Source of the DNA: Teredinibacter turnerae
GTDB lineage: Bacteria; Pseudomonadota; Gammaproteobacteria; Pseudomonadales; Cellvibrionaceae
Direction: 5' to 3'
Assembly (NCBI RefSeq): GCF_037935975.1
Contig: NZ_CP149817.1
Location: forward strand, 3,720,001 to 3,784,000
DNA: 64,000 bases
The notes beneath the pieces were generated by a model. The model ran no database searches. It was not told the origin of the DNA and worked only from the letters and a program-made list of their open reading frames with translations. Within the stretch, counting starts at the first letter, position 1; each line of letters opens with the position of its first letter. The translations under genes and the position numbers were made by a program. Of this stretch, positions 3,919 through 18,561 are shown one piece after another.

Positions 3919-5652
3919 TTAACAACAGCCGCCGTACCGCTTTTGCTTGGATGTTTTGCCAATACCGGAATTGAATGTATTGGTGGGGTCGAGGCTGCGG
4001 TAGAACGCTTCTGTTTCTGGTGGGACTTGGTACAGATGGCCAAAGTTATGCTCGGCAGGATAAGCTGCTTGACGCGTATCCTGGTAGGCCAACAGGGCTT
4101 TTTTTACGTCCTTCGCGCAATAGCCTTTCTTCACCAGATAATCCTGATGGAACACATGGCAAAAAAAGTGACCGTAGTATAGAGGAGGCAGAATTTTTTC
4201 ACTGATTTCACTGGGCAGCGCCTCAAACCAGTTGGATTCATTGCGCTTTAGGGCAATATCCAGTGCGACAATATCTTCAACTTCCTCGGTATTTACCTGC
4301 AAATAGCGCACTCCCGCACCCGCCACCGCAAAGCGGTGCAACATTGCATCTGTGGATTCATCCACGGTACACGCAATGTAAGCGCCGTTGGCGGCGGCAT
4401 GACTTTTATCCGCTCGCTCATGCCCGTTTTCATTGCCAAACAGCGAGGCGAGATACCTGTTTAATTCTGCGATACCGTCACCCGACATTTTTATAATCAA
4501 GTGATGTTCGTATTGCGCGTGAAATTGCAGCAGGCGGTTGGGCAGATGCTGTGGAAACAGCTTACTCGCCCACTGCATCATTCTATCTGGCAAATCTTTC
4601 GGCAGTAGAGGAACACTATTTAACACCGACGTAAAGTAGCCCTTAACTGAAAAAAGTCTGGGCATAGCATCGGTGCCCAACCGCTTTATCGCGATAAAGG
4701 TATCCTTGCCATAGTCCCGCGCCACATCAAACGCGGTTTTATGAATATACTCGCCTAATACCGGCATGTGCTCGAAGGAGCTCAGAATATGCCGCCGAAT
4801 TTCGGTAAATACGGCGGCATCGTTGGTACCCAAATAAAACACTTGCGACTGCTCTTCAGCAACAAAGGTATCGAGCCGTACGGCGAATACCGCCAGCTTG
4901 CCCGCACAGCCGCTAGACTCAAACTGGCGGCGCGGATCAGCGTTATAACGCGCTGGGGTTTCCGCGTTTACATCGCGTACCCGCGCAATATATTCCCGGT
5001 CAGATGCCATTTTGTCCGTTGCAGGCGCGTTCGACTCTGCTGGCAGCGCCTCTAGTCGCTGTAGTATCTCCTGCGGTGAATCGCCCAACTCCAAGCCCAA
5101 ATGATTAACCAGAGTAAGCTCGCCCTGCTCGTTCACCTGGGCATAAAGGGACAGTTCTGTATAAGCTGGCCCACGCTGTACAAGCGCGCCACCAGAGTTA
5201 TTGGCAATACCGCCCACCACAGAAGCACCTATGCACGAAGAACCAATAACCGAGTGCGGTTCACGCTTTAGCGGCTTGAGCGCATTTTCCAGTTGATACA
5301 ACGAGGTACCAGGAAAAGCCAGCACCTGCGAACCTTCGTTAAGCAGCACCAGCTTGTCCAGTTTTTTGCCGCTGATAATCACCACCGGCCGGTCGTAATC
5401 GTGGCCGCTCGGGCTGGAACCTTCCGTTAAACCAGTGTTTGCAGCTTGCATAATGATGATGGCCCCCGCATTAACGCAGGCCTGGAGCACCTGCCACTGA
5501 ACCCATAAACTGGAGGGAAAGACAACCGCAACAGCGCTGCCCTCCCCTGAGCGAAATCCGGTGCGGTAATAACGGGTTTGTTTGCTCGAGGTTAAAACGT
5601 TCTCTTCGCCCGCCACCTGTTGTAACGCACGGATCAGCTCACTATTGCTCAT
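3919..5652 (-). CDS. dld: Quinone-dependent D-lactate dehydrogenase
   Basis: About 577 residues, close to the 571 of E. coli Dld. It is a peripheral inner-membrane flavoprotein that oxidises D-lactate to pyruvate and reduces quinone. The N-terminal FAD-binding half shows the PCMH-type segments QAANTGLTEGSSP and SSCIGASVVGGIANNSGG. The C-terminal half has the Dld-type membrane/cap region, ending with HNFGHLYQ and DPTNTFNSGIGKTS, typical of this subfamily. I prefer the ATG at 5652 over the one nine bases earlier because E. coli Dld also begins shortly before the first helix. The DJ-1/PfpI gene lies 29 bases upstream on the same strand, suggesting co-transcription. Confidence 0.93.
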   Translation of the reverse strand: MSNSELIRALQQVAGEENVLTSSKQTRYYRTGFRSGEGSAVAVVFPSSLWVQWQVLQACVNAGAIIIMQAANTGLTEGSSPSGHDYDRPVVIISGKKLDKLVLLNEGSQVLAFPGTSLYQLENALKPLKREPHSVIGSSCIGASVVGGIANNSGGALVQRGPAYTELSLYAQVNEQGELTLVNHLGLELGDSPQEILQRLEALPAESNAPATDKMASDREYIARVRDVNAETPARYNADPRRQFESSGCAGKLAVFAVRLDTFVAEEQSQVFYLGTNDAAVFTEIRRHILSSFEHMPVLGEYIHKTAFDVARDYGKDTFIAIKRLGTDAMPRLFSVKGYFTSVLNSVPLLPKDLPDRMMQWASKLFPQHLPNRLLQFHAQYEHHLIIKMSGDGIAELNRYLASLFGNENGHERADKSHAAANGAYIACTVDESTDAMLHRFAVAGAGVRYLQVNTEEVEDIVALDIALKRNESNWFEALPSEISEKILPPLYYGHFFCHVFHQDYLVKKGYCAKDVKKALLAYQDTRQAAYPAEHNFGHLYQVPPETEAFYRSLDPTNTFNSGIGKTSKQKRYGGCC

Positions 5653-5681
5653 GCTACACATTGCCCTGAAAAAGGATATCT

Positions 5682-6245
5682 CTATTTATTAAGTAACTCG
5701 TTAAACTGTTTCAGCCAGGCGGGATGCGCAGGCCAAGCAGGCGCGGTTACCAGATTGCCATCGGTGATAGCGTCGTCCACCGCGATATCCGCATAGTCGC
5801 CACCCGCAAGTTTAACTTCCGGTGCGCACGCAGGATAAGCCGATACTTTCTTGCCTTCAATAATCTTCGCCGCAGCCAGCAGTTGCGCGCCATGGCAAAT
5901 TGCGGCAATTGGCTTGGCACTGGCGGCAAAGGCGCAGACAATGTCGATAACCGCAGGGTTCAGTCGCAAGTACTCCGGCGCTCGACCACCGGGTATCACC
6001 AACGCATCAAACTGACTCTCGCTTACATCCGCAAAACTGGCGTTCAAGGTAAACGCGTGGCCAGGCTTTTCTGAATAGGTCTGGTCGCCTTCGAAATCGT
6101 GAATCGCCGTTTTTATTTTGTCCCCGGCAGATTTATCCGGGCATACCGCCGACACCTCGTGCCCCATCGCCTGCAGCGCCTGAAAAGGCACCATCAACTC
6201 ATAATCCTCAACAAAATCACCTGCAATAACCAGTACTTTAGCCAT
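5682..6245 (-). CDS. DJ-1/PfpI family protein
   Basis: 187 residues forming a single glutamine-amidotransferase-like domain. The nucleophile elbow is AAICHGAQ with Cys117-His118; Glu14 in the first loop (DFVEDYE) is placed like the glutamate that polarises the cysteine in DJ-1 family members, and [10 protein letters not shown] (about 85-94) is the conserved glycine loop. Family members include glyoxalase III/deglycase-type and stress-associated proteins. Its position directly upstream of D-lactate dehydrogenase is suggestive, because a glutathione-independent glyoxalase would produce D-lactate from methylglyoxal; that link is inference. Strong ribosome site GAGGAG before the ATG. Confidence 0.88.
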
Positions 6246-6713
6246 CGTTATTCTCCTCGGAACTCAACTGAAACATAAATGTTAATTTTCACGCCACAAA
6301 AGCGCGAGCAAAGACAAACCGCAGCCTAGAGCGTGCGCGTCGTATCTTAGGCGGCTTAGAGTGTTGAAATTGTGAATAGTGCAGTATGGGGATAGCCGAT
6401 TTAACGCTATGAACGTGTCTACCAAATCAAAGAGATTCAAACTGACACATTAAATTAGTCTGCTTGACATGAATCAGGATCAAGCCAGTACATCCAACTA
6501 AGAAAATATATAATATCGGGACGACTCTGTGTACAGTTACCGGTATAGGGCATTGGCAGACCTCATGACTCAAGAAAAACTCGAGAAATATATAATCATG
6601 CATAACTAGCCAATAAGATAGAGTTTTCCGATATTAATATAAACTGATCATTTATACTAGCGAGCTTGACCTTATTTTACCCACCCCCATGCCTCCCAAA
6701 AATATTTGGACCC
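6246..6713. other. Intergenic stretch, boundary of the accessory island
   Basis: About 470 bases that become AT-rich toward the right. No gene, tRNA or clear inverted repeat seen. It separates the GC-richer core genes from the AT-rich accessory genes starting at 6714. Confidence 0.45.
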
Positions 6714-7550
6714 ATGAAACAAAAACATATTCCACGAATTGCATTTCCAGAATACATAGACCCAAGGGTTTCGAGCGCCATCGAAAAATCCGAAAGTCAA
6801 GGGCTAATTAAGGCAGTGAGACCTAACTTCTCGCAAAACGCCAACACCAAAAATGAGATTATTACTTCGCTATACGAAGCAGCCGTTAAACTTGTAGAAG
6901 ACGGTGTAGCTGACGGCATAATTGCCGGAGCTTGCGCCTCAAAAAAAGATATCATTAAAATCATATTAAAGAACAACAAGGGCAACCTCAAAAACCGACT
7001 TTTTACAATAGCTCCTTTAAGACTTAAATTCGCCAACACCAGCAACGTAACATACATGCTTGACCCAATAATAAAAACAAAAAAGAGTGCCCCAGCCCTA
7101 AAAGAAGTAATTATACAGGCCATATCTTTTTTCTCAGAACTTACAAATCGAGAACCTCTGGTAGCCTTGATAACAAACAACGAGCACGAAGAAGATACCG
7201 AAGAGATTTTTAAATCTTTCACAAACCTATATTCAGGAGAATTATCAGAAAACCTATACCCATATCCTGTACAACTGGACGTGGCTCTCAACAAGAAGAT
7301 AAGGGAATACAAACTAAAGCTAACCATAGAAAATGCGGATATTTTAGTGTTTGATGACTTAACCAGTGCAAATATTTTTTACAAATCTGCAAGTCTTCTT
7401 CAAAACGCAACGAGCGGAGCTATAATGCTTGGATTAAAAAAAGGAATATATGGCCTAATATCGAGAGGAGCCGAAAAAGATGAAATACTTCGCTTAATAA
7501 AATTTGTATCAACGCGATACAATTCAACGACCAAAATCAAGTTTCCGTGA
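6714..7550 (+). CDS. Phosphate acetyl/butyryltransferase-like protein, partner of a membrane protein
   Basis: 278 residues covering the whole Pta/Ptb catalytic-domain pattern but divergent. Recognisable blocks in order: RIAFPEYIDPRVSSAI near the N-terminus, ADGIIAGACAS, PVQLDVALN, then ADILVFDDLTSANIFYK and GLKKGIYGLISRGA near the C-terminus; these match the Pta order. The usual GP-x-x-x-G block before the SRG motif is altered to SGAIMLG, so catalysis is uncertain and the fold may be used for binding acetyl-phosphate, acyl-CoA or another ligand. A TTG 48 bases upstream would add 16 odd residues, so I use the ATG. The gene is AT-rich, stands alone from acetate metabolism genes (no ackA), and is followed 18 bases later by a membrane protein gene, inside a defence-type island. 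Function in defence is inference. Confidence 0.7.
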   Translation: MKQKHIPRIAFPEYIDPRVSSAIEKSESQGLIKAVRPNFSQNANTKNEIITSLYEAAVKLVEDGVADGIIAGACASKKDIIKIILKNNKGNLKNRLFTIAPLRLKFANTSNVTYMLDPIIKTKKSAPALKEVIIQAISFFSELTNREPLVALITNNEHEEDTEEIFKSFTNLYSGELSENLYPYPVQLDVALNKKIREYKLKLTIENADILVFDDLTSANIFYKSASLLQNATSGAIMLGLKKGIYGLISRGAEKDEILRLIKFVSTRYNSTTKIKFP

Positions 7551-7568
7551 CACCACAGAGGGTACAGG

Positions 7569-8609
7569 ATGATCCGCAACGAGCTAGCAAAAAAACATAA
7601 AACAATATCGATTTGGTCAGCATCAATAACATTTGCTGCGTTATCATTCCCCTACAAAACCGCAACCCTAAAAACAGATGCAGACGAATCCATCACAACA
7701 ACAATTCAAATTTTATTAAATAAAACTGGTTTTATCGACCCTTTGATCACATTTGTAATGACTGCCGTAGGAACTTCAGTATTCATACTCACATTCAAAG
7801 TACTCCTATCCCTCTATTCACGAGTCTTTTGGAGATTACGTTGCCCTACTGGATATTTGGGGGGGAAGTGGCATTTATTTTACGATGTTTATGAAAACAG
7901 CTATGACGGGACGACAAATTCTAAGAGATTCGAGCGTCACAGCTTAATTGGAGAGGCCGATATCTACCACTCGATCGAAGGAGTAACCATTAACGCTAGA
8001 AGCTTCGACACAAATACTGAAACTCTTTCTGCTGACGCCAAATCGCTTTGGACAACTAATTCTAGTAACTTATTCTATGAAATTATAAATGGCAGCATGG
8101 TTCTCTCGAACCAAAAAGGCCAGTCAGTTGGAACCATGATTTTACACATAGTGCCAAACGATAGTAGGAACTTTACATTCAAATCGCTACAAACTACTGA
8201 GCACAGTTTATACAGCTATTTATCTTTAGTATCTGCAATTTTTACCAACTTCATCATTTTTATACAGAAACTATTCTTGTATTTAGTCACCCTTTTAAGA
8301 GAAGTTGGCTATTTATCCCCAAGCAACCCCCGTAAAATAAGCGGACATTACTCTTTCGTAATTGGACCAAAGCTGACACAAGGACGAATCACCCTAATAA
8401 AGAAAGGAAGCAATCCTGAGATAGACGAACCTAGAGAGTCATCTTGCAAATCACTATCCAGACAGCGCATCGAAAAAATCCGAAACTGGGGGTACACAGC
8501 AGATAGGGAGAACAACGTAACTGCAAGCTATTCCTACACCGCGTTTCAAAATATTAAAAACTTTGAATTCCGACCAGTGCAGCGAGAACCCGAAAGTGCA
8601 GAGGTATGA
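7569..8609 (+). CDS. Two-TM, beta-rich membrane protein (effector-like)
   Basis: 346 residues, not assigned to a named family. Two hydrophobic segments lie near residues 14-30 and 58-82, followed by a soluble part rich in alternating hydrophobic residues beginning GYLGGKWHLFYDVYEN. A third hydrophobic stretch lies at about 217-245, and a final strand-like segment GHYSFVIGPKLTQGRITLIKKG precedes the tail. The N-terminal two-TM plus beta-barrel layout resembles the S-2TM-beta/Cap15 type of effectors in antiphage systems, but this is shape resemblance only. It follows the Pta-like gene by 18 bases with ribosome site GAGGGTACAGG, so the two are almost certainly one operon. An IS5-family element begins 56 bases after its stop. 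Confidence 0.65.
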   Translation: MIRNELAKKHKTISIWSASITFAALSFPYKTATLKTDADESITTTIQILLNKTGFIDPLITFVMTAVGTSVFILTFKVLLSLYSRVFWRLRCPTGYLGGKWHLFYDVYENSYDGTTNSKRFERHSLIGEADIYHSIEGVTINARSFDTNTETLSADAKSLWTTNSSNLFYEIINGSMVLSNQKGQSVGTMILHIVPNDSRNFTFKSLQTTEHSLYSYLSLVSAIFTNFIIFIQKLFLYLVTLLREVGYLSPSNPRKISGHYSFVIGPKLTQGRITLIKKGSNPEIDEPRESSCKSLSRQRIEKIRNWGYTADRENNVTASYSYTAFQNIKNFEFRPVQREPESAEV

Positions 8610-8665
8610 GGATATTGCTCGCAGAGATCAATTTGGGTACGCGAATTTATATCCGGCTTATTTAG

Positions 8666-9811
8666 GGAACCTCTGAATTTTACGCAAATTTTAGAGATTT
8701 AATTAAATTTTCAGTATTTTCCCCCAATAAGAAAAAAATCGCAGCATATCCTCGGTAATTTACCCTAAATTCAGGCCAAAACCTGAATTCAGGGCGCACT
8801 GCCCCTCAGGACAGCAAATACCGCTTGCATGTAACAAGGTTTGCGAACCCCGCCAACAAATATAAACGCTCCGTATTTTTCGCCAATCCGCGATAGCGGG
8901 TTTTACTGTAACCAAACTGCTGTTTAATAATGCGAAACGGATGTTCCACTTTCGCGCGTACACTCGCCTTGATTTTTTCAAGCTGTGCCGCTGCGCCGCT
9001 TAAGGTCTTTCGTTTTCCGGGGCGGCAGCCAACAAACCAGTCTATATCCAGGTTTTGTACCTCGTCCCGTTTTTCAATCCCGAGGTAACCCGCATCACCC
9101 CACATACGATTTTCGTTACCATGCAGTAATTGTCTGCCCAAATTTATATCGTGAACATTTGCCGGGGTAGTATCCATGCTATGGATTACACCAAACGCAT
9201 CGTCTACGCCAATGTGCATTTTCATTCCAAAATGCCATTCATTTCCCTTTTTGGTTTGGTGCATCTCGAGATCTCGCTGGCCGGATTCGTTTTTTGTCGA
9301 AGTCGGCGCGCTGATAATAGTGGCATCAACAATCGTGCCTTCCTTAAAGGAAAGGCCTTGTTTGGCTAGGTGTTTGTTTATTTTGGAAAACAGTTTCTTC
9401 CCGAGGTTATGTCTTTCGAGCAAGTGACGGAAATTTAAAATCGTTGTTTCGTCCGGAACAGTATCAATACTGATTCCGGCAAAGCGTCTCATGGATTCAA
9501 CTTCGTACAAGGTGTCCTCCATCGCAGGGTCGCTGAGATTATAAAACAGTTGCATGCAGTGAATGCGAAGCATGCTTGAAAGCGGGAACGGTTTTCGACC
9601 CCGCAGTGATTTTGAGTAGTAGCGGGCTATCGGCCTTTCGAGCTCACTCCAGGGGAGGAGCTTATCCATCTCAAGAAGGAATCTTTCCCTGCGGGTTTGT
9701 TTGCGTTTTGCCTGGCCTTCGGCATCTGAAAAGCTTAACAGGGACATAATATTTGCTCCGACTTGAGATGACCCGTATTATCGCAGATATTCGGTATTTT
9801 TCAGAGGTTCC
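8666..9811 (-). mobile_element. IS5-family insertion sequence, complete
   Basis: 1146 bp bounded by perfect 12-bp terminal inverted repeats (GGAACCTCTGAA at the left end, its reverse complement at the right), which continue imperfectly inward. TTAG occurs immediately outside both ends (8662-8665 and 9812-9815), a 4-bp target duplication of the YTAR type known for IS5-group elements. It contains one intact transposase gene. It lies between the membrane-protein gene and the 3' flank of the reverse-transcriptase locus. Confidence 0.92.
8806..9747 (-). CDS. IS5-family transposase (DDE)
   Basis: 313 residues, full length for the family. An N-terminal DUF772-type region (RYYSKSLRGRKPFPLSSMLRIHCMQ area) is followed by the DDE domain: first Asp in GTIVDATII, second Asp in MWGDAGYLG, and Glu in KVEHPFRIIK. 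Intact, with both element ends and a target duplication present, so the copy may still be active. Confidence 0.95.
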   Translation of the reverse strand: MSLLSFSDAEGQAKRKQTRRERFLLEMDKLLPWSELERPIARYYSKSLRGRKPFPLSSMLRIHCMQLFYNLSDPAMEDTLYEVESMRRFAGISIDTVPDETTILNFRHLLERHNLGKKLFSKINKHLAKQGLSFKEGTIVDATIISAPTSTKNESGQRDLEMHQTKKGNEWHFGMKMHIGVDDAFGVIHSMDTTPANVHDINLGRQLLHGNENRMWGDAGYLGIEKRDEVQNLDIDWFVGCRPGKRKTLSGAAAQLEKIKASVRAKVEHPFRIIKQQFGYSKTRYRGLAKNTERLYLLAGFANLVTCKRYLLS

Positions 9812-9899
9812 TTAGCAAATGAAAGTTCAGCACAATACTGGCAAGGCAAAAAGCAACGCATTGGAGGCTTTGGCTGATACCTCTTTACTCGTGACCCTT

Positions 9900-10144
9900 A
9901 CCCTTACGATAGGGCTGAATTGGAGCTATGCAAATTATTATACACTCCAAATCAAAGAGGGGTGGTGAGATGCTCAGAACGTCGAGTGTGTGCAATATAA
10001 ACATTGCTCTATTTGCGCAACTGCTCAACCACTTAAGAACAATTACACAAAAAGTTTGAACGCTAACTCAGTCGCTGCTTGGCTTCGCAGCGCCTGACAA
10101 AAGCGCTAGAGTTCGCTTTTGCATGCTCACCGCCAGTAAATGTA
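9900..10144 (-). ncRNA. Candidate DRT3 template ncRNA downstream of drt3b
   Basis: The stretch between the drt3b stop and the IS5 element has no gene but is structured. Read on the minus strand it begins with a long imperfect stem-loop at about 10112-10055 (outer arms GCGAACTC/GAGTTAGC, inner arms CGCTGC/GCAGCG). It then has a small hairpin GCAAT-GTTTAT-ATTGC at 10008-9993, followed at once by the tract CACACAC (9992-9986), and later a stem TTGGAG/CTCCAA (9950-9920). DRT3 systems are known to carry a structured ncRNA, and recent work describes an AC-repeat template copied by Drt3a. Position, structure and the AC tract fit. Ends are estimated; expression cannot be seen. Confidence 0.55.
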
Positions 10145-12097
10145 TCATGAGTAGGAACCAACTCTCAATTCTTTCTTTTCAATTAGGTTTAAAAGATCAA
10201 GCCTATTCCAATCTACAAACCAAGGATTCTGCGACATAAAAGTTAACTCTTTCTCAGCCTCCGCACTATTCAGTGCTCGCAATCCATTACTTTTCCTAAA
10301 GTCTTTTAGAATCGCTTTTCTGAATCCCGCATCTACGTGAGGGCAAGAAATCACATCCAACATAATATGGATAGACTCAGAATCATCTATTATTCTTGAC
10401 ATATGCAACTTCAAGCGCTCTAGCCGCACCATGATTTTCTCAGATATAACAGCGTATTCATCTCTACCCCCAATGTAAAATAGCAAAGATATTATTTCGT
10501 AGTATCCCAAATTCCTATCTCCAATCACCTGGCTACAAATAAAATCTGAAGGCAACAAGTACTCATCACCCAGCTCTCGCAAAGCAATTAGCACATTAAT
10601 TTTTTCAAGAGAAACGTGATTATCAACATAACTGGGCGAGGCGACTTCCGGAGATTTCAAAAAGGCAACCCCGCCTTCGTACATTCTTTGAAAAATCATT
10701 TCCGAGAAATCTGGAAATTCCCTTTTGAAGAATCTAGACACAAGAACAACAAATTTCAATAGGTCAAATGAAGAGCCAACCAGAGGAAATACTGAATAGA
10801 AATAAAATACGATCTGAGAAAAAACATCAAAACACCGCAAATACAAAGCACCTTCACGCCCTCCACACTCGTCATTAAAATCTTCTATCAGCAGGGCTGA
10901 ACGTCTAAAAATAGCAGAAATAATGTAAGAAGACGCCACCTCATACCCCAGATCAGCCTTAGCAAGTATAGACTTCACTCTACCGACAAAATCAACATAT
11001 AACCGATGGCGATACCGAACATAAACAGGCGCTAGACCTCCATCATTTTTTTGAGTCATTATTTTTACAAAAAAATCGTTTAACAAATCAGATAATGATT
11101 TCATCGCGGACGACCTTGAAGTTAAAAAAGGCCGCTCCATACGATTAGTTTTTGATTCGTTCACGAACAAATTATAATTCATTAACTCATCAATATAATG
11201 CCCCTCAATCTCATCACGCGCCCCCTCATCATTACAAAAAATATAAAAATCATCGACATATCTTCTAATTACGTAGTCCACACCCAGTTTGAGACTTTGA
11301 CGCTCCAATCTACGCACGACAGCTTTATCAACGCCTTCCATAAGAACTTCCGCAAACACTCTGGATATTTCGGGGCCGACGGGGATTCCGTTTGTTTCGC
11401 CATGATTAGAATTTTGCATTAGCCGGTCAAAATCACCAGAAAAGTAGCTAGCCCGATTTAGATCTTTAGAGAATTCTTTTCCATGTGTGGACCAACTTAA
11501 ACTGTGGGTATAGATCGACGAAAAAAAAGCACTAACATCTATCATTAATAGATACCGATAGCGTTTCTCAAGCTTTAACAACTCAAAAGAATTCCAAAAC
11601 TTGTGCAACCGAGTGTAACCTCTGTAAGAAAAATACGAGATAGCGTACTTTTTGTACAACTCTTCACCGCTTATCAAAATCGAATTGTCACGATATTTAT
11701 CCGGAAGAAAAACTGGAGAATCCACGTAGTAGATGTCGCCCACTTTTGTCGGTGAGCGAATTGATGTTTTCGACCTTCGACAATAATATGCAATGATATT
11801 ATCGTATTCTTTTAAAAATTTTGCGTAAGCAACCTGCGATGCTGGGTGAACTAAAAACAATTCCCGAAGCCCACCACCCTCCTTGTTTACTTTATATTTG
11901 TAGGGTTTGGTTCGCTTCTTAAAACCGAGGATTTTATCCACTATATCGTAAAATTCAAACGAATCGTTTTCTAATTTTTTAGCATGTTCATACAACCCAA
12001 CCCCACAAGTAATAATCGGCATCTCATAAGGCGTAACATCTGTTAATAATGCCCGAAGATAATCCTTTCTGTCCGCTTTTACTTGAACTCTAGACAT
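10145..12097 (-). CDS. drt3b: Antiviral reverse transcriptase Drt3b (UG8-like)
   Basis: 650 residues. A reverse-transcriptase core is evident: motif A LLMIDVSAFFSSIYTHSL with Asp187, motif B-like GIPVGPEISRVFAEVLM (about 237-253), and catalytic YVDD at 280-283 within RRYVDDFYIFCND. About 300 residues of helical C-terminal region follow with no recognised domain. The length and the pairing with a shorter upstream RT match DRT3, which combines UG3 (Drt3a) and UG8 (Drt3b) reverse transcriptases with an ncRNA for phage defence. It overlaps the upstream drt3a gene by eight bases, implying translational coupling. AT-rich like the rest of the island. The a/b assignment is from size and order; a profile search would settle it. 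Confidence 0.82.
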   Translation of the reverse strand: MSRVQVKADRKDYLRALLTDVTPYEMPIITCGVGLYEHAKKLENDSFEFYDIVDKILGFKKRTKPYKYKVNKEGGGLRELFLVHPASQVAYAKFLKEYDNIIAYYCRRSKTSIRSPTKVGDIYYVDSPVFLPDKYRDNSILISGEELYKKYAISYFSYRGYTRLHKFWNSFELLKLEKRYRYLLMIDVSAFFSSIYTHSLSWSTHGKEFSKDLNRASYFSGDFDRLMQNSNHGETNGIPVGPEISRVFAEVLMEGVDKAVVRRLERQSLKLGVDYVIRRYVDDFYIFCNDEGARDEIEGHYIDELMNYNLFVNESKTNRMERPFLTSRSSAMKSLSDLLNDFFVKIMTQKNDGGLAPVYVRYRHRLYVDFVGRVKSILAKADLGYEVASSYIISAIFRRSALLIEDFNDECGGREGALYLRCFDVFSQIVFYFYSVFPLVGSSFDLLKFVVLVSRFFKREFPDFSEMIFQRMYEGGVAFLKSPEVASPSYVDNHVSLEKINVLIALRELGDEYLLPSDFICSQVIGDRNLGYYEIISLLFYIGGRDEYAVISEKIMVRLERLKLHMSRIIDDSESIHIMLDVISCPHVDAGFRKAILKDFRKSNGLRALNSAEAEKELTFMSQNPWFVDWNRLDLLNLIEKKELRVGSYS

Positions 12098-13325
12098 TTA
12101 CCCAGCATCTCTTAATACTACGATAGTCAGCCGAACTAAAGTGGTATTTAATCCGAGAGGCAAACCCCCTACAAAAGGAATAGGACAAGAGCTTACGCCT
12201 TTGCTCCCGAGTAATTAATTCCATTATCCCTGCTGATAACTTTCCACCACCTCCAAGAAGCATAGCCTTAAAATATAAATCAAGCTCTCTTAAGCGATCC
12301 TCCACATTCACCCGTTTGTAATTATAAAAAATACCAGCCATCCGTATCCGATCTTGATCGGGATCATATATTGCGTAGTTACTGGTTAAATATCGAATCC
12401 GCATATCTAACAATTCAAAATTACTATTTTTGTTGAAACTTAATAATGAAAGAGCTATTTTCGTTTTAATTCGCTTAGACTTCGATTCACAAATATCAAC
12501 CAAAACCCCTCTTGCACAATGTTCTTGAGCTGGATTTTTTATCGTCAATTCGTAACCGAGAAAATTAAAACAGTGCCTTATTTTTCCAAAATCATTTTTT
12601 TTAGGCTGGCGTAAAATACACCCGATATCAGTCTTGCAATCATTAAATTTAAGCTCTCCAGGAAGCTTATCGCCCAACCAGCTAACAAAATCTTTCGGGT
12701 TTTCTGTGCCGTCCGTAATAACTATGAGATCATCAACATAGCGATTATAAAAAAATACCTTTTCACTCGCCAAAACTGCAGCATCAAAATCACGAATGAA
12801 AAGCTCCGACAAGGTCGCACTTAGAGAGATCCCTCTGGGCAATCCTACAATTCTTTTATTCGATAGCTCACAAAAAAAAGATTTAACTAACCGAGCGGTT
12901 GAGCGAGAAACTGATGTATCACGATATAACCGTGAAATTAGGATTTCGGGAGATACAGACTCGTAAAAGCTTTGAATATCTAGCTTGTAAATACGATAAT
13001 TTATGTCTGACTTTAAGAAACCGATCAAATCCCCAACTATGATATCTCTGCTAGCTTGCTTCACCCAAGTTAACCTACGAATATTATTCGATATTTTCCT
13101 TATCACAAGTTGTTGAGGTAACGATTCAACCACCCAAACAGCTTTTCCCTTTCTAAATTCTTGCCGGAGGCTCATGCAAGCCTCAAAACCGTCCACTGAA
13201 ATTTCCACTGCCTTTTGGACTTGATCAACCAACCAAGCATTCAAGTCCTCCTTTCTAGCCGCCTGAAAGTCCTTAGATTTTAACTCTCCCCTCAAGCTAA
13301 TCGCAGAAAAAGCACTGTTATACAT
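12090..13325 (-). CDS. drt3a: Antiviral reverse transcriptase Drt3a (UG3-like)
   Basis: 411 residues. RT motifs: motif A YKLDIQSFYESVS (Asp116), motif B GLPRGISLSATLSELFIRDFD (about 161-181), catalytic YVDD at 196-199, and the primer-grip-like HCFNFLGYEL near 268-277. No maturase, endonuclease or integrase domain, and no group II intron or retron RNA context, so this is an unknown-group defence RT rather than an intron protein. It is the first gene of the pair and overlaps drt3b by eight bases. In DRT3 the smaller RT is Drt3a, reported to copy the AC-repeat of the ncRNA; a matching candidate lies past drt3b. Confidence 0.82.
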   Translation of the reverse strand: MYNSAFSAISLRGELKSKDFQAARKEDLNAWLVDQVQKAVEISVDGFEACMSLRQEFRKGKAVWVVESLPQQLVIRKISNNIRRLTWVKQASRDIIVGDLIGFLKSDINYRIYKLDIQSFYESVSPEILISRLYRDTSVSRSTARLVKSFFCELSNKRIVGLPRGISLSATLSELFIRDFDAAVLASEKVFFYNRYVDDLIVITDGTENPKDFVSWLGDKLPGELKFNDCKTDIGCILRQPKKNDFGKIRHCFNFLGYELTIKNPAQEHCARGVLVDICESKSKRIKTKIALSLLSFNKNSNFELLDMRIRYLTSNYAIYDPDQDRIRMAGIFYNYKRVNVEDRLRELDLYFKAMLLGGGGKLSAGIMELITREQRRKLLSYSFCRGFASRIKYHFSSADYRSIKRCWVNV

Positions 13326-14192
13326 CCCTGCCGCCCCCTGTTTGATAAATCAAGTTAACCACACAACAGTAAAAAGATACCATATCTGAAAATTTCTACG
13401 CTTAACATGACAGCTGAACTCAATAAGGACTCAAATTACGATACCAAAAGCCCGCGCATAATACCGGCACCTTAGTTAAAAACAGCACTAAAAACTTAAT
13501 GGGATCCGGATTTAACTCGGTAATTCGCACCTTGGGCTGCGCCCCCCTAATGGACGACCAAATTTGAACTTAGCTGCAGATATTGCCGTGCGATTTTCCA
13601 TAGAAGCACATATAGCCAAGTCAACACATACAACTGCTTTCTGCGTGCATTTGGCTGGCTCAACAGAGAGGTCTATCAGAGGACAATTGGATAAATAGAT
13701 ACCATAACAGTGCCAAGCATTGCACTGGTACTTTTGGTTAGCGAAAGTAGGGGCCAGCGCCTCGTGGTGAGTTGGGGTTATGTTCTCCCCCTTATCGTAT
13801 CTGAACTCCATTCAAGCACATCCGATTTGCCTTACGAATTCTGGGAGTTTATGGGGGGAGTTGGAAGCTTGTCAAATATTGATCACTGGCATTCATAGTC
13901 ACCTGTTACTGCCGCCCCTTTACTGGAGTCGAGTCCGCGGCGTTGCCAATGTAGCAAGACCCAACATTGAACCACCCAGGGAACGTCTTACGCCAAAACA
14001 CGCTTCAAATTTGGACTTAATATGGACTAAATTGCGGGTACAACAAAGCTAAGCCAAGTAGAGGGGCTCCAAGCTCAAGATTTAACAGCGTTTTTGTTCG
14101 CCCAGACCACCGCCAACTTTCGGAGCTAGAGACGTCGCAAAACCCAAAAAAGTACATCAAAGAACATTTTTTGGTCACCGCAGTCTAGACCT
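13326..14192. other. Intergenic stretch upstream of drt3a
   Basis: About 870 bases without a recognised gene. It should contain the drt3a promoter on the minus strand, but I cannot place it. Several frames of 60-100 codons run through it; none has a domain or a convincing ribosome site. A short GC hairpin (TTGGGCTGCGCCC near 13530) resembles hairpins found elsewhere in the window. Confidence 0.45.
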
Positions 14193-14249
14193 ACCTACAA
14201 AATAGGTATATAAACCTACTTTGTAGGTTATATTACCTTAATCTTAGGT
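14193..14249 (+). promoter_or_regulatory. Multi-palindrome operator/promoter of the winged-helix gene
   Basis: Three successive inverted repeats share ACCTA/TAGGT half-sites: ACCTA-CAAAA-TAGGT (14193-14207), the perfect 17-bp AACCTACTTTGTAGGTT (14213-14229), and a weaker ACCTTAATCTTAGGT (14235-14249). They lie directly upstream of a gene for a small winged-helix protein starting at 14256, as expected for autoregulation. AT-rich hexamers between the repeats could form the promoter. Confidence 0.7.
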
Positions 14250-14255
14250 TTTATT

Positions 14256-14585
14256 ATGATTGAAGCGATTGTTGGCTCTACTAGTGCAGAGCGTGTGCTC
14301 ATGTTTATCACCGCTCGCGAATCCGGGTATGCGGCAGAAATTGCAAAAACTTTTTCTACCGATATAAGCCCTATTCAAAAACAACTGGACCGCCTTGAGC
14401 GAGATGGCCTGCTCATCAATGAGAAAATAGGCAGAACGAGGTTGTACAAATACAACCCGCGGTACCCTTTTGTACCAGAGCTAAAGGCACTGATTGATAA
14501 GGCGCTAGCGATGGCGCCGGAGGCGATTCAAGACACTCTGCTTTACGACCGTCGCAGGCCACGTAAGAAGGATAAACCCTTATGA
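14256..14585 (+). CDS. Winged-helix (ArsR-like) regulator, probable antitoxin partner
   Basis: 109 residues. Residues about 10-70 form a winged helix-turn-helix (AEIAKTFSTDISPIQKQLDRLERDGLLINEKIGRTRLYKYNP) typical of ArsR/MarR-like folds, followed by a helix and a strongly basic tail (DRRRPRKKDKPL). No metal-binding cysteines, so a metal sensor is unlikely. It overlaps the downstream nucleotidyltransferase gene by an ATGA junction and sits behind three palindromes with a common half-site. The pair looks like a toxin-antitoxin or abortive-infection unit in which this protein represses its own operon; that role is inference. Confidence 0.78.
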   Translation: MIEAIVGSTSAERVLMFITARESGYAAEIAKTFSTDISPIQKQLDRLERDGLLINEKIGRTRLYKYNPRYPFVPELKALIDKALAMAPEAIQDTLLYDRRRPRKKDKPL

Positions 14586-15133
14586 AATCACTAAAAGGGT
14601 TTTCCCGTTTGGAATTAGCGTCAATCATTGCCGAAGAACTTAGAAGTAAGGGTATCGACGTTGTTCTTTCGGGTGGCTCGTGCGTTTCTATCTATTCTTC
14701 CGAAAAATATGTTTCCAAAGATTTGGACTTTATAGATATCAGCTTGAAATCCAACCGGCAAATAGCAGCGGCTATTCGTTCCTTGGGGTTTGAAAATCGG
14801 CCTAAAAACAGTCGCCACTTTGTTCACCCAGACACTAAATTAACGGTGGAATTTCCCGCTGCGCCACTCACTGTTGGCGATGAATTCATACCAGCAAACG
14901 CCGTACATTCCATTAGCACAGAGCAAGGCACCTTAAAGTTGCTTACCCCAACCGATTGTGTAAAGGACCGCCTGGCAAACTACTACTACTTCCGCGATAA
15001 CCAATGTTTTGACCAAGCGATATTAGTGGCGAAATCTCACCCTATCGATCTTGACTCTATTGAAGTATGGCACGCAAATGAAAAGCAGCAAAAGGGGTAT
15101 CAAGAATTCCTGAAGCGGTTGCGAACCAGCTAG
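14582..15133 (+). CDS. Nucleotidyltransferase-fold protein (AbiEii/DUF6036-like)
   Basis: 183 residues. The nucleotidyltransferase signature is visible as LSGGSCVSIYSS (about 29-40) followed by SKDLDFID, giving candidate metal-binding Asp47 and Asp49. The rest matches the small AbiEii/DUF6036-type NTases that modify tRNA or other targets in toxin-antitoxin systems. Translationally coupled (ATGA) to the winged-helix gene before it. Predicted as the toxin or effector of the pair; the target cannot be read from the sequence. Confidence 0.75.
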   Translation: MKSLKGFSRLELASIIAEELRSKGIDVVLSGGSCVSIYSSEKYVSKDLDFIDISLKSNRQIAAAIRSLGFENRPKNSRHFVHPDTKLTVEFPAAPLTVGDEFIPANAVHSISTEQGTLKLLTPTDCVKDRLANYYYFRDNQCFDQAILVAKSHPIDLDSIEVWHANEKQQKGYQEFLKRLRTS

Positions 15134-15169
15134 GGCCCACCAGGGATTTATACGTGACCTTTTAACCAC

Positions 15170-15300
15170 ATTTGGCAGCGGACCCAGGCGGGTTGTTGTG
15201 GCCGGAATGGACTCGGTGCTTTGCACCTCGGGCTGCGCCCGCCCTCCGGGCGCCCAAATTTGCCTTTGGCAAATTAGTGAACCGAGGTCTAAGAACAACG
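15170..15300. repeat. Cluster of short GC-rich hairpins
   Basis: Successive perfect or near-perfect palindromes: GGGCTGCGCCC, GCCCTCCGGGC and AAATTTGCCTTTGGCAAATT. They resemble the variable-stem hairpins that make up the larger arrays at 38-42 kb, but lack the GTTCC linker. Confidence 0.5.
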
Positions 15301-15321
15301 TCCGTCACTTCAACCGGCAAA

Positions 15322-15357
15322 CAAAAAAAGGCCACCCAATGGGTGGCCTTTTTTTGT
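15322..15357 (-). terminator. Bidirectional intrinsic terminator after tRNA-Pro
   Basis: Stem GGCCACCC/GGGTGGCC with loop AAT, flanked by A run on the left and T run on the right, so it can act on both strands. It lies just past the 3' end of tRNA-Pro on the minus strand. Confidence 0.85.
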
Positions 15358-15362
15358 TTGAT

Positions 15363-15439
15363 TGGTCGGAGTGGCCGGATTTGAACCGACGACCACCACA
15401 CCCCCAGTGTGGTGCGCTACCAGGCTGCGCTACACTCCG
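15363..15439 (-). tRNA. tRNA-Pro (GGG)
   Basis: A cloverleaf folds on the minus strand: acceptor CGGAGTG/CACTCCG, D arm AGCGCAGCCTGGTAGCGC, anticodon stem CCACA/TGTGG enclosing CTGGGGG (anticodon GGG), T arm GTCGGTTCAAATCCGGC. The discriminator A and CCA end are encoded. Its 3' end faces the accessory island at 6.7-15.1 kb. Confidence 0.95.
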
Positions 15440-15532
15440 AATTCGCTGCGTACAATGGCAGGCGAGGCGCACATCATACGGATTACAGGGCTTTATGCAA
15501 GCCCCTTTTTTTGCTGTATTTTGGCGGCTTGA

Positions 15533-15886
15533 TTAGCTTTTGAGCATCGCCAAAACGGCTTCCAGCTCTCTGATCATATCCTGTACAACATCGCCCAGAA
15601 CAAGCTCTTCTGGCTTGCCGTCAGTGGTCATTTGCTGGCGCGCACCGCCGATGGTAAAGCCTTGATCGTAGAGCAGGGAGCGGATTTGGCGGATGGTAAG
15701 TACATCGGACCGCTGATAGTACCGGCGGTTGCCGCGGCGTTTAACCGGTTTGAGTTGCGGAAACTCCTGTTCCCAATAACGAAGAACGTGCGGTTTTACC
15801 GCACACAACTCGCTGACTTCTCCAATGGTGAAGTAGCGCTTGCCAGGGATTACGGGTAATTCGTCGTTATTACTCGGTTCCAGCAT
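15533..15886 (-). CDS. MerR-family transcriptional regulator
   Basis: 117 residues. An N-terminal MerR helix-turn-helix is clear: [45 protein letters not shown] (about 18-62), followed by a helical dimerisation segment. No cysteine-based effector site. This short MerR gene directly following ihfA, before tRNA-Pro, is a conserved arrangement in many gammaproteobacteria. It overlaps the end of ihfA by about 17 bases. Confidence 0.9.
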
Positions 15887-16193
15887 ACGCTTCGACTCGT
15901 GCCTTTAATTTTTGTCCTGGCCGAAATGTTACCACTCTTCGCGCGGTGATAGGGATCTCTTCCCCGGTTTTGGGATTTCTGCCCGGACGCTGTTTCTTGT
16001 CGCGCAAATCAAAGTTTCCGAAGCCGCTCAGCTTCACTTGCTCGTTGTTTTCGAGCGCGTTGCGAATCTCTTCGAAGAAGTACTCTACCAGTTCTTTGGC
16101 TTCACGCTTGTTGAAGCCAAGTTCCTCGTAGAGGTTTTCTGCCAAATCCGCTTTGGTTAACGATTCTTTTGAGCCATTATCGGAGGCTTGCAT
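15870..16193 (-). CDS. ihfA: Integration host factor subunit alpha
   Basis: About 107 residues from the ATG at 16193. The HU/IHF fold is unmistakable: [33 protein letters not shown], then [14 protein letters not shown] and the DNA-contacting arm [23 protein letters not shown]-alpha and beta bend DNA for replication, recombination and transcription. I choose this ATG because GGGG lies about eight bases ahead; in-frame ATGs at 16202 and 16217 are possible. The start overlaps the end of pheT, as is common for pheT-ihfA. Confidence 0.95.
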
Positions 16194-18561
16194 CGAATTC
16201 ATCCCCCAGTTGCGCAACGATTGCGCTCACTGCACTGTTGATTTCTTCTTCATTAAGAGTGCGTGAAGGATGCTGAAAGGTCAAGCTAAAAGCAAGACTT
16301 TTTCTTTTAGGATCAATACCTTCGCCGCTATAAACGTCAAAAACCTTTAACTTCTTCAAGCTTTTGCCAGCATTATTTCTGATGACATTTTCGAGCTGTG
16401 CACTGCTGATACCCTTGTCGACAAGTACGGCCAAATCTCGGGTAACGCCCGGGAATTTAGACAATGGCTTAAACTCGGGCACGGTGCCTTCGGCGACAGC
16501 TTGTTGGTCCAGCTCGAACACGAATACTGGGCGTGCGATACTTAGCTGCTTCTGAACTGCCGGGTGAATGGCACCTAAATAGCCTACAATCTTGTCGTTC
16601 AAGACCACATCAGCACACTGACCAGGGTGCATGGCGGGGCGTGTGCTGGGTACAAACTGGAACGCCTGAGCGGTAATCGCCAACAGCGACTCCAGGTCCC
16701 CTTTCAGGTCGTAAAAATCCACTTCACCTTTGTCCGCGGACCAGGCCGCCTCGTAACGCGGACCGTAGATTAAACCGGCAATACCCGGTACCTGGGTTAG
16801 CCCTGCTTCGGAAGGGACAAAACGCAGGCCTTTCTCGTATAGTCGCACGCGGCTTTGCTGGCGGTTGAGGTTGCGTACCAGGGTATCCACCAGACCGGGA
16901 ACCAGCGAAGTGCGCATGGTGCTCATATCGGCAGAAATCGGGTTGAGCAATTCAACGGCTTCTCCACCTTCGAAGAGCTGGTGCAATTTCGGGTCGATAA
17001 AGCTATAGGTAATTGCTTCCTGATAACCACGCCCTATCAACTGGCGTGCGACACGGTCTTCCGGAATTTTCTGCTCGCGAATAAGCGGCAATTCCGCGGT
17101 AATACGCATCTGGGTGCTGGGCAGGTTGTTGTAGCCGTAGATACGCGCCAATTCCTCGAGCAGATCCTCTTCGATACTGATGTCAAAGCGGTAACTCGGT
17201 ACGTTGAATTCCCAGCCTGTTGCGGTGGTATCCCGCAGTTCCAAACCAAGGCGCGCGAGAATATCCAGCACTTCGTCGTCCGGAATAGCGAAGCCAAGAC
17301 CCATCTCGATGCGTTCGCGACGCAGGGTCACGCTGCGTGCAGCAGGCAATTCTGTTGGCAACTCCTGGCAAACTACTGGCCCTGCTTCACCGCCGACAAT
17401 GTCGAGTAACAGCTGGGTCGCTCGCTCTAATGCGGCGACTGTGCCATTGAAGTCTACGCCGCGCTCAAAGCGATGCGAGGAGTCGGTATGCAGGCCATAG
17501 GAGCGCGCGCGACCGGCAATAGCCAGCGGCGAGAAGAACGCACTTTCGAGGAATATATTGGTGGTAGCGTTAGTAACCGACGAGGGCTCGCCCCCCATGA
17601 TACCGGCCATGGCCAGCGGGCCTGTGGCATCTGCGATCACCAGGGTGTCGCTGTTAAGTTTTACCTCCTGGCCGTCCAACAGCGTCAGGCATTCATCCTG
17701 TTCGGCCATGCGCACACGGATACCGCCATTCAGTTTGTCCAGGTCGAACGCGTGCATCGGCTGACCCAGTTCGAGCAGGATGTAGTTGGTTACGTCCACA
17801 ATGGCATCGATGGAGCGAATACCGCCGCGGCGCAGGCGTTCCTGCAGCCATTGCGGGCTAGGTGCACTCACATCAACACCCTTGATAACGCGTCCGGCGT
17901 AGCGAGCACAGGCATTGCCCGCCAGCAGCTCAACCGGGAAAGATACCGCTGATTGGGGCGCTACTGGTGCAATCTCGGGGTAGCTCACCTCGCATCGGTT
18001 CAATACGCCCACTTCGCGCGCAAGGCCCTTCAGGCTCAGGCAATCACTGCGGTTTGGCGTGAGGTCTACCTCAATAATGGTGTCGTTAAGACGGAGGTAT
18101 TCGCGTAAATCGGTGCCTACAGGCGCGTCTAGGGCGAGTTCCATCAAGCCGGAATCGTCGTCACCCACTTGCAGTTCGGTTTCTGCGCACAGCATTCCCA
18201 TGGATTCCACGCCGCGCAACTTGGCCTTTTTAATTTTGAACGCTTTACCGTCGTCACCCGGTGGCAGTTGGGCACCCACCAGGGCGAATGGAATTTTGAT
18301 GCCCACGCGCGCATTGGGCGCACCGCAGACCACTTGCTTGATGCCGTCTGGCGCACCGGCAACCTTACATACGCGCAGTTTGTCCGCGTCCGGGTGTTGT
18401 TCGGCTTCCAGAATTTCGCCGACGACCACCTGGCTAAAGCTGCCGGCCACTGGCTCTACGCCGTCCACTTCCAGGCCAGCCATGGTGAGCTGTTCTACGA
18501 GTTGTTCTGTGTTAATGCTGGGGTTTACCCAGGTACGCAACCAGGATTCGCTGAATTTCAT
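16177..18561 (-). CDS. pheT: Phenylalanyl-tRNA synthetase beta subunit
   Basis: 794 residues, matching the E. coli enzyme (795). Domains in order: N-terminal B1 and EMAP/OB-type tRNA-binding domain (about 40-150, with [20 protein letters not shown]), B3/B4 editing domain, B5, the catalytic-like core, and a C-terminal anticodon-binding ferredoxin-like domain ([15 protein letters not shown] onward). With PheS it forms the alpha2beta2 synthetase that charges tRNA-Phe. Gene order pheS-pheT-ihfA is the standard one. Confidence 0.97.

Follow-up and report, generated by a model that had tools for sequence, protein, structure and literature searches.

The 64,000-nt stretch analysed here (the window; Teredinibacter turnerae contig NZ_CP149817.1, forward-strand positions 3,720,001 to 3,784,000) carries on its minus strand a locus that we assign to the anti-phage system DRT3, composed of two reverse transcriptase (RT) genes and, downstream of them, a predicted non-coding RNA (ncRNA). 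The first gene, drt3a (12090-13325), encodes a class 2 (UG3) RT of 411 aa with YVDD codons at 12740-12729, and the second, drt3b (10145-12097), encodes a class 1 (UG8) RT of 650 aa with YVDD codons at 11260-11249. Both genes are intact, adjacent and in the same orientation, and their open reading frame (ORF) coordinates overlap by 8 bases (12090-12097), an arrangement found too in relatives including L042, L043, L044, L063 and L064 of the comparison set introduced below. A preliminary description of this DNA had proposed two RT genes of these sizes with this overlap and had named them Drt3a and Drt3b; the ORFs and their coordinates are as it gave them.

Profile hidden Markov model searches confirmed both identities. 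Drt3a scored 359.4 bits against NCBIfam NF041747 (curated cut-off 200) and matched the PADLOC Drt3a model with an E-value of 1.6e-134; Drt3b scored 589.9 bits against NF041748 (curated cut-off 350) and matched the PADLOC Drt3b model with an E-value of 2.2e-205. Both proteins also matched in sequence, over nearly their full length, the E. coli DRT3 complex solved as PDB 9z6y, whose depositors use the names Drt3a and Drt3b (chain A for Drt3a, E 4.5e-62; chain H for Drt3b, E 1.9e-109), the lineage being a different one.

The drt3b stop codon is followed by 329 bases (9816-10144) up to the boundary of an insertion sequence (IS) element, and this RNA region is single-copy in the genome. Folding of 9955-10144 gave a minimum free energy of -67.9 kcal/mol; shuffled sequences averaged -50.8 (z -4.27), and none of the 200 was as stable. 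The minimum-energy structure consists, in order, of a closing helix (P1), internal stem-loops, a 6-bp hairpin (10007-9992) and an unpaired ACACAC. From the fold z-score, similar folds predicted in relatives of the window locus, and a position matching that in E. coli DRT3 (EcoDRT3), we delimited a predicted ncRNA core of about 174 nt at 9961-10134 on the minus strand, which places the structured segment where it is expected, 3' of drt3b. P1 is predicted to pair 10121-10134 (5' strand) with 9961-9973 (3' strand) through 12 base pairs interrupted by a mismatch and a bulge. The hairpin directly 5' of the putative template (9992-10007, minus; GCAATG-TTTA-TATTGC), comparable with stem-loop 4 of EcoDRT3, absorbs the first C of the CACACAC at 9986-9992 (minus) and leaves unpaired the ACACAC (9991-9986) that we predict to be the poly(dTdG) template. 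A hairpin immediately before CACACAC was therefore recovered where it had been described, with the first C inside it; the structured non-coding stretch past drt3b also held up, except for its claimed length of 245 bases, the distance to the IS boundary being 329 bases and the core about 174 nt. The broader proposal of an ncRNA 3' of drt3b with an AC-repeat template is supported, as a prediction, by fold, position, conservation and the published E. coli ncRNA.

We assembled 26 DRT3 loci: the window locus (L010), 14 loci from genomes, eight from plasmid records and three from E. coli records. Genome matches below the Drt3b cut-off were left out. The plasmid loci are the first eight of 206 matching records, six of which cover at least 80% of the query, and plasmid matches H9-H11 (47% coverage) lie outside the sample; the three E. 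coli loci, from 22 records, represent one per distinct match pattern among the 20 of the 22 that were listed. L065 (E. coli plasmid CP083496.1), with an interrupted drt3b, was left out of all counts over 25 loci. Across those 25 loci the median pairwise identity of Drt3b is 29% and the highest 82%. Apparently interrupted genes were seen at two loci of the set: the annotation of L065 divides drt3b between two ORFs, and the drt3a match of L039 is spread over two reading frames.

ACACAC lies within 250 nt after the drt3b stop in all 25 loci, compared with 1.64 loci expected from shuffles and 0.95 from the density of the motif elsewhere in the same loci; the opposite-strand motif GTGTGT occurs in the first 250 nt of a single locus. 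Tracts of at least 7 nt are present in 21 of 25 loci (0.73 expected), and exactly one ACACAC-containing tract lies within 400 nt in each of the 26 loci. L065 has CACACAC at +42, bringing the motif count to 26/26 when it is included. In the window locus taken alone the tract is only mildly unusual: dinucleotide shuffling of this locus yields ACACAC within 250 nt of the stop with a frequency of 4.3%, and a 7-nt tract with a frequency of 2.4%. An RNA alignment of the eight loci of the window's clade (MAFFT; 328 columns, 41% mean identity) contains nine invariant columns, seven of which are CACACAC, the only invariant run; without the window the alignment has 307 columns and ten invariant ones, again with CACACAC accounting for seven. 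The AC tract is thus better conserved in relatives than its surroundings, on a comparison that had been set in advance. The rest of the RNA in this clade is no longer alignable whereas the template is fixed, and because little beyond the template aligns, a consensus structure drawn from these alignments would have no meaning. When the 36 nt before each template were folded in isolation, the gap between hairpin and template was at most 4 nt in 18/25 loci, compared with a fraction of 0.48 of 912 control positions, and at most 1 nt in 13/25 compared with 0.23; these isolated folds lend modest backing to a rule that a hairpin precedes the template.

The residues that govern DNA synthesis in EcoDRT3 were located with the E. 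coli locus L078 as reference, in which E22, R71, D182, R241, D278 and Y666 stand at exactly the numbers given in PMC13174585, a source used here for the passages available. Alignment to L078 assigned as equivalents in the window Drt3b E25, R78, D187, R246 and the YVDD motif (280-283); the protein also has a C-terminal Tyr649. Glu25 (codon 12023-12025, minus) corresponds to E22 of EcoDRT3b, which favours dATP, and this first gate is Glu in 22 loci and Asp in three. Arg246 (codon 11360-11362, minus) corresponds to R241, the dCTP switch, and is Arg in 25/25 loci. Tyr649 (codon 10151-10153, minus), the penultimate residue in a C-terminus that ends VGSYS, is the candidate priming tyrosine equivalent to Y666, a role predicted from its place in the C-terminal tail. 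The R71 equivalent is Arg in 24/25 loci (exception L068), the catalytic D278 equivalent is present in all 25, a Tyr stands among the last four Drt3b residues in 24/25 (exception L077), and the catalytic DD of Drt3a is present in 25/25.

Two side observations concern these residues. The loci with Asp at the dATP gate are L043, L062 and L075, and their RNA motif is still ACACAC. The annotated Drt3b C-terminus of L077 (E. coli NZ_CP031134.1) differs and lacks the terminal Tyr of L078, to which it is 82% identical, so that protein priming may have been lost in L077; its match pattern is shared by 12 E. coli records out of the 22, among which the C-terminus was inspected in L077.

We then compared P1 across loci by pairing the segment that directly follows drt3b with the one on the 3' flank of the template, in cognate and in between-locus combinations. 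By duplex energy, 13 of the 15 loci outside a clade with compact RNAs (see below) had their cognate P1 at ranks 1-6 of 49, although the P1 sequences differ; the exceptions are the E. coli loci L078 (rank 12) and L077 (rank 18). The ungapped-helix score gave the same trend less sharply: outside the compact clade it placed ten loci at ranks 1-3, L077 at 6, L078 at 7, the window at 9, and L062 and L063 at 13, and inside that clade it gave ranks 11-43. A duplex test of longer flanks against shuffles separated the groups poorly, with p <0.05 in 8/15 loci outside the compact clade and 2/10 inside. Across most lineages the sequences of the P1 strands show no relationship, but their complementarity is kept, a pattern that argues for selection on RNA structure.

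In the Drt3b tree (25 rows), ten loci (L039-L041, L067, L069-L072, L076 and L079; L065 is outside the tree) form one clade with support 100/100 in which 39-68 nt separate the stop from the template, eight of the ten having it at 39-43 nt. The other 15 loci have the template 63-222 nt after the stop (153 in the window), so that the two ranges just touch. The compact spacing leaves space for about one hairpin; a GGCTG-type hairpin stands right before the tract in the folds of four of the ten compact loci (L070, L071, L072 and L079), and the string TTAATGGCTG is present in six of the ten. The window locus is of the extended type and belongs to a set of eight (99/98), where it forms a trio with L042 and L043 (98/99). 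It is possible that the compact clade represents a separate compact type of DRT3 RNA. We hold it at about even odds that DRT3 combines a single, near-unchangeable DNA output with at least two RNA builds tied to the Drt3b tree, namely an extended build with a long, freely drifting P1, as in the window, and a compact build whose 5' side would reach or overlap the end of drt3b. If true, this would mean that the template and the protein gates are locked together, as both strands must stay complementary. No description of a compact RNA type was found in the literature passages covered, the supplements of PMC13174585 and Deng et al. 2026 lying outside that scope.

According to the available passages of a bioRxiv preprint by Wang et al., the ncRNA of E. 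coli DRT3 is encoded 3' of drt3b, and DRT3a synthesises poly(dTdG) on a conserved 5'-ACACAC-3' template that adjoins stem-loop 4 of this RNA; for poly(dCdA), DRT3b starts at Y666 and uses E22 and R241 as gates, and RecBCD restrains the DRT3 product (PMC13174585). The account given there of copying that runs on into stem-loop 4 suggests to us that this stem-loop sits on the 5' side of the template in EcoDRT3; those passages contain no mention of a helix closing the RNA (PMC13174585). The main DRT3 points of Deng et al. 2026 are relayed, in the passages available, by a review (PMC13314766) and a commentary (PMC13213688). The location of the RNA and its template, which the preliminary description had implied to be new, are not new because they have already been shown experimentally for E. 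coli DRT3 (PMC13174585), and the window locus is accordingly a further member of DRT3: a right but ordinary, well-preserved example.

Like EcoDRT3, with whose residue numbers L078 agrees, the window locus has the gene order drt3a-drt3b, a predicted downstream ncRNA with a stem-loop by ACACAC, E/R gates and a C-terminal Tyr, as far as the available passages of PMC13174585 describe them. It differs from L078 in Drt3b sequence (about 31% identity), in the template position (+153 in the window, +129 in L078) and in the 8-base gene overlap, the two genes being separate in L078. The closest relative found, L042 from the same family, is 42% identical in Drt3b and 39% in Drt3a and has CACACAC at +200; its RNA can be aligned with that of the window at the template only. 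DRT10 and telomerase, to which DRT3a is likened in PMC13174585, resemble it by description in copying a short RNA template repeatedly; unlike DRT3, they are given no partner with protein-templated synthesis in those passages.

By analogy with E. coli DRT3, from which the activities, oligomeric state, products and defence are carried over, Drt3a would bind the RNA specified immediately downstream of drt3b and copy the unpaired ACACAC repeatedly into poly(dTdG), with the hairpin 5' of the template as the point where copying should stop and reset. Drt3b, as a hexamer primed by its C-terminal tyrosine, would make poly(dCdA) without a nucleic acid template, Glu25 and Arg246 enforcing the alternation. 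The two products would anneal into repeat double-stranded DNA and lead to abortive infection. DRT3 is a striking system in that a protein serves as template for DNA synthesis, and the fresh value of this comparison lies in the constancy of template motif and gates while the RNA build changes. A June 2026 review, in the passages available, lists as open whether DRT3 has one architecture or subtypes with other motif outputs (PMC13314766); the present comparison speaks to this subtype question, all 25 divergent loci retaining ACACAC as the motif and Glu/Asp and Arg as the Drt3b gates.

Gene identity, intact motifs, position, predicted fold and deep template conservation are established for this locus, and we consider it highly probable (about 0.93) that it is a complete DRT3 anti-phage locus, including the RNA 3' of drt3b, with its defence role assigned by analogy with E. 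coli DRT3. Several observations weigh against this reading. The window's P1 ranks 5 of 49 by duplex energy and 9 of 49 by ungapped-helix score, and has p 0.30 in the long-flank shuffle test, so that taken alone it is suggestive only; in the ten compact-clade loci P1 ranks 16-44 of 49 by duplex energy, no better than between-locus pairing. The 36 nt before the window's template, folded in isolation, prefer another hairpin, with a gap of 6 nt. No Rfam family matched 9816-10200 at E-values up to 1, and at gathering thresholds the whole window yielded three tRNAs only. No terminator-like site was found at 9700-13700, leaving the formation of the RNA 3' end unexplained. Finally, the alignment column of Y666 holds S648 in the window protein, its C-terminal Tyr standing one residue off.

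Some of these points favour other explanations. The pair might be a retron, a group II intron or another UG-type RT pair, and both proteins do show weak matches to retron, intron and other RT families; these fall below curated cut-offs (Drt3a: 38.9 bits for retron St85 against a cut-off of 235, and 49.6 bits for group II maturase against one of 300; Drt3b: 31.7 and 34.7 bits), whereas the DRT3 models lead by hundreds of bits and exceed theirs, which makes this explanation extremely improbable. Membership of a retron or group II intron RT family was rejected, no curated model being above its cut-off for either protein. It is also very unlikely, if somewhat less so, that the genes are DRT3 while the functional RNA lies elsewhere and CACACAC is incidental 3' untranslated sequence. 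The 2-4% chance of the tract in the window locus and a P1 that is not beyond chance there would allow it, but the tract occurs at that place in 25/25 loci, CACACAC is the sole invariant run of the clade's RNA alignment, and experiments in E. coli put the RNA downstream of drt3b (available passages of PMC13174585).

A further explanation shares the DRT3 identity and differs on activity, so that its odds and those of the complete locus are not exclusive: the locus may no longer work, for example if the IS element interferes with how the RNA 3' end is formed. This IS5-type element (8666-9811, minus) has 12-bp terminal inverted repeats, a transposase gene (8806-9747) co-oriented with the DRT3 operon, and a 4-bp target duplication, TTAG (8662-8665 and 9812-9815). 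It lies outside the predicted RNA and starts 149 bases past the core and its P1. Four more copies in the genome (1144-1146 bases) are 97-98% identical; the presence of such an element this close to P1, together with the missing terminator-like site, is what would speak for a loss of function. The coding motifs are intact, however, the RNA core is uninterrupted, and the insertion is 3' of both the template and the predicted closing helix; we regard a non-working locus as unlikely, and the reading of a complete DRT3 locus is retained.

Drt3b above the cut-off was found in 6/144 genomes of the window's family, 7/195 of its relatives, 9/390 of the order, 2/369 of the class and 2/398 of the phylum, in overlapping samples that each count the window's own genome; none of the seven other genomes of the genus in the family sample had one. 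We infer that this patchy distribution fits a mobile defence gene set. The Drt3b search returned only three distant reverse transcriptases from genome contigs (28-29% identity over residues 180-289), no match in viral contigs, and nine phage records, none covering 80% of the query; the window's own DNA had no match in E. coli genomes. No direct repeats of at least 16 bases marking island ends were found at 5600-16300.

The other three RVT_1 matches of the genome are far from the DRT3 locus. Elsewhere the same genome encodes a UG9-small type reverse transcriptase with a PADLOC E-value of 1.9e-238 (L003, G000:C1:4411249-4411740) and a protein that combines Cas6-like and RT segments (L005, G000:C1:235722-236216). 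Window positions 14256-15133, next to tRNA-Pro(GGG) at 15363-15439, encode a 109-aa protein with weak helix-turn-helix matches (PADLOC candidate PDC-M05A, E 5.9e-12) and, after it, one of 183 aa that matched no family. A gene pair at 6666-8609 encodes one protein with a phosphate acetyl/butyryl transferase-like domain and one of 346 aa that weakly matches a 2TM effector model (E 0.0037), and is possibly another defence or signalling pair.

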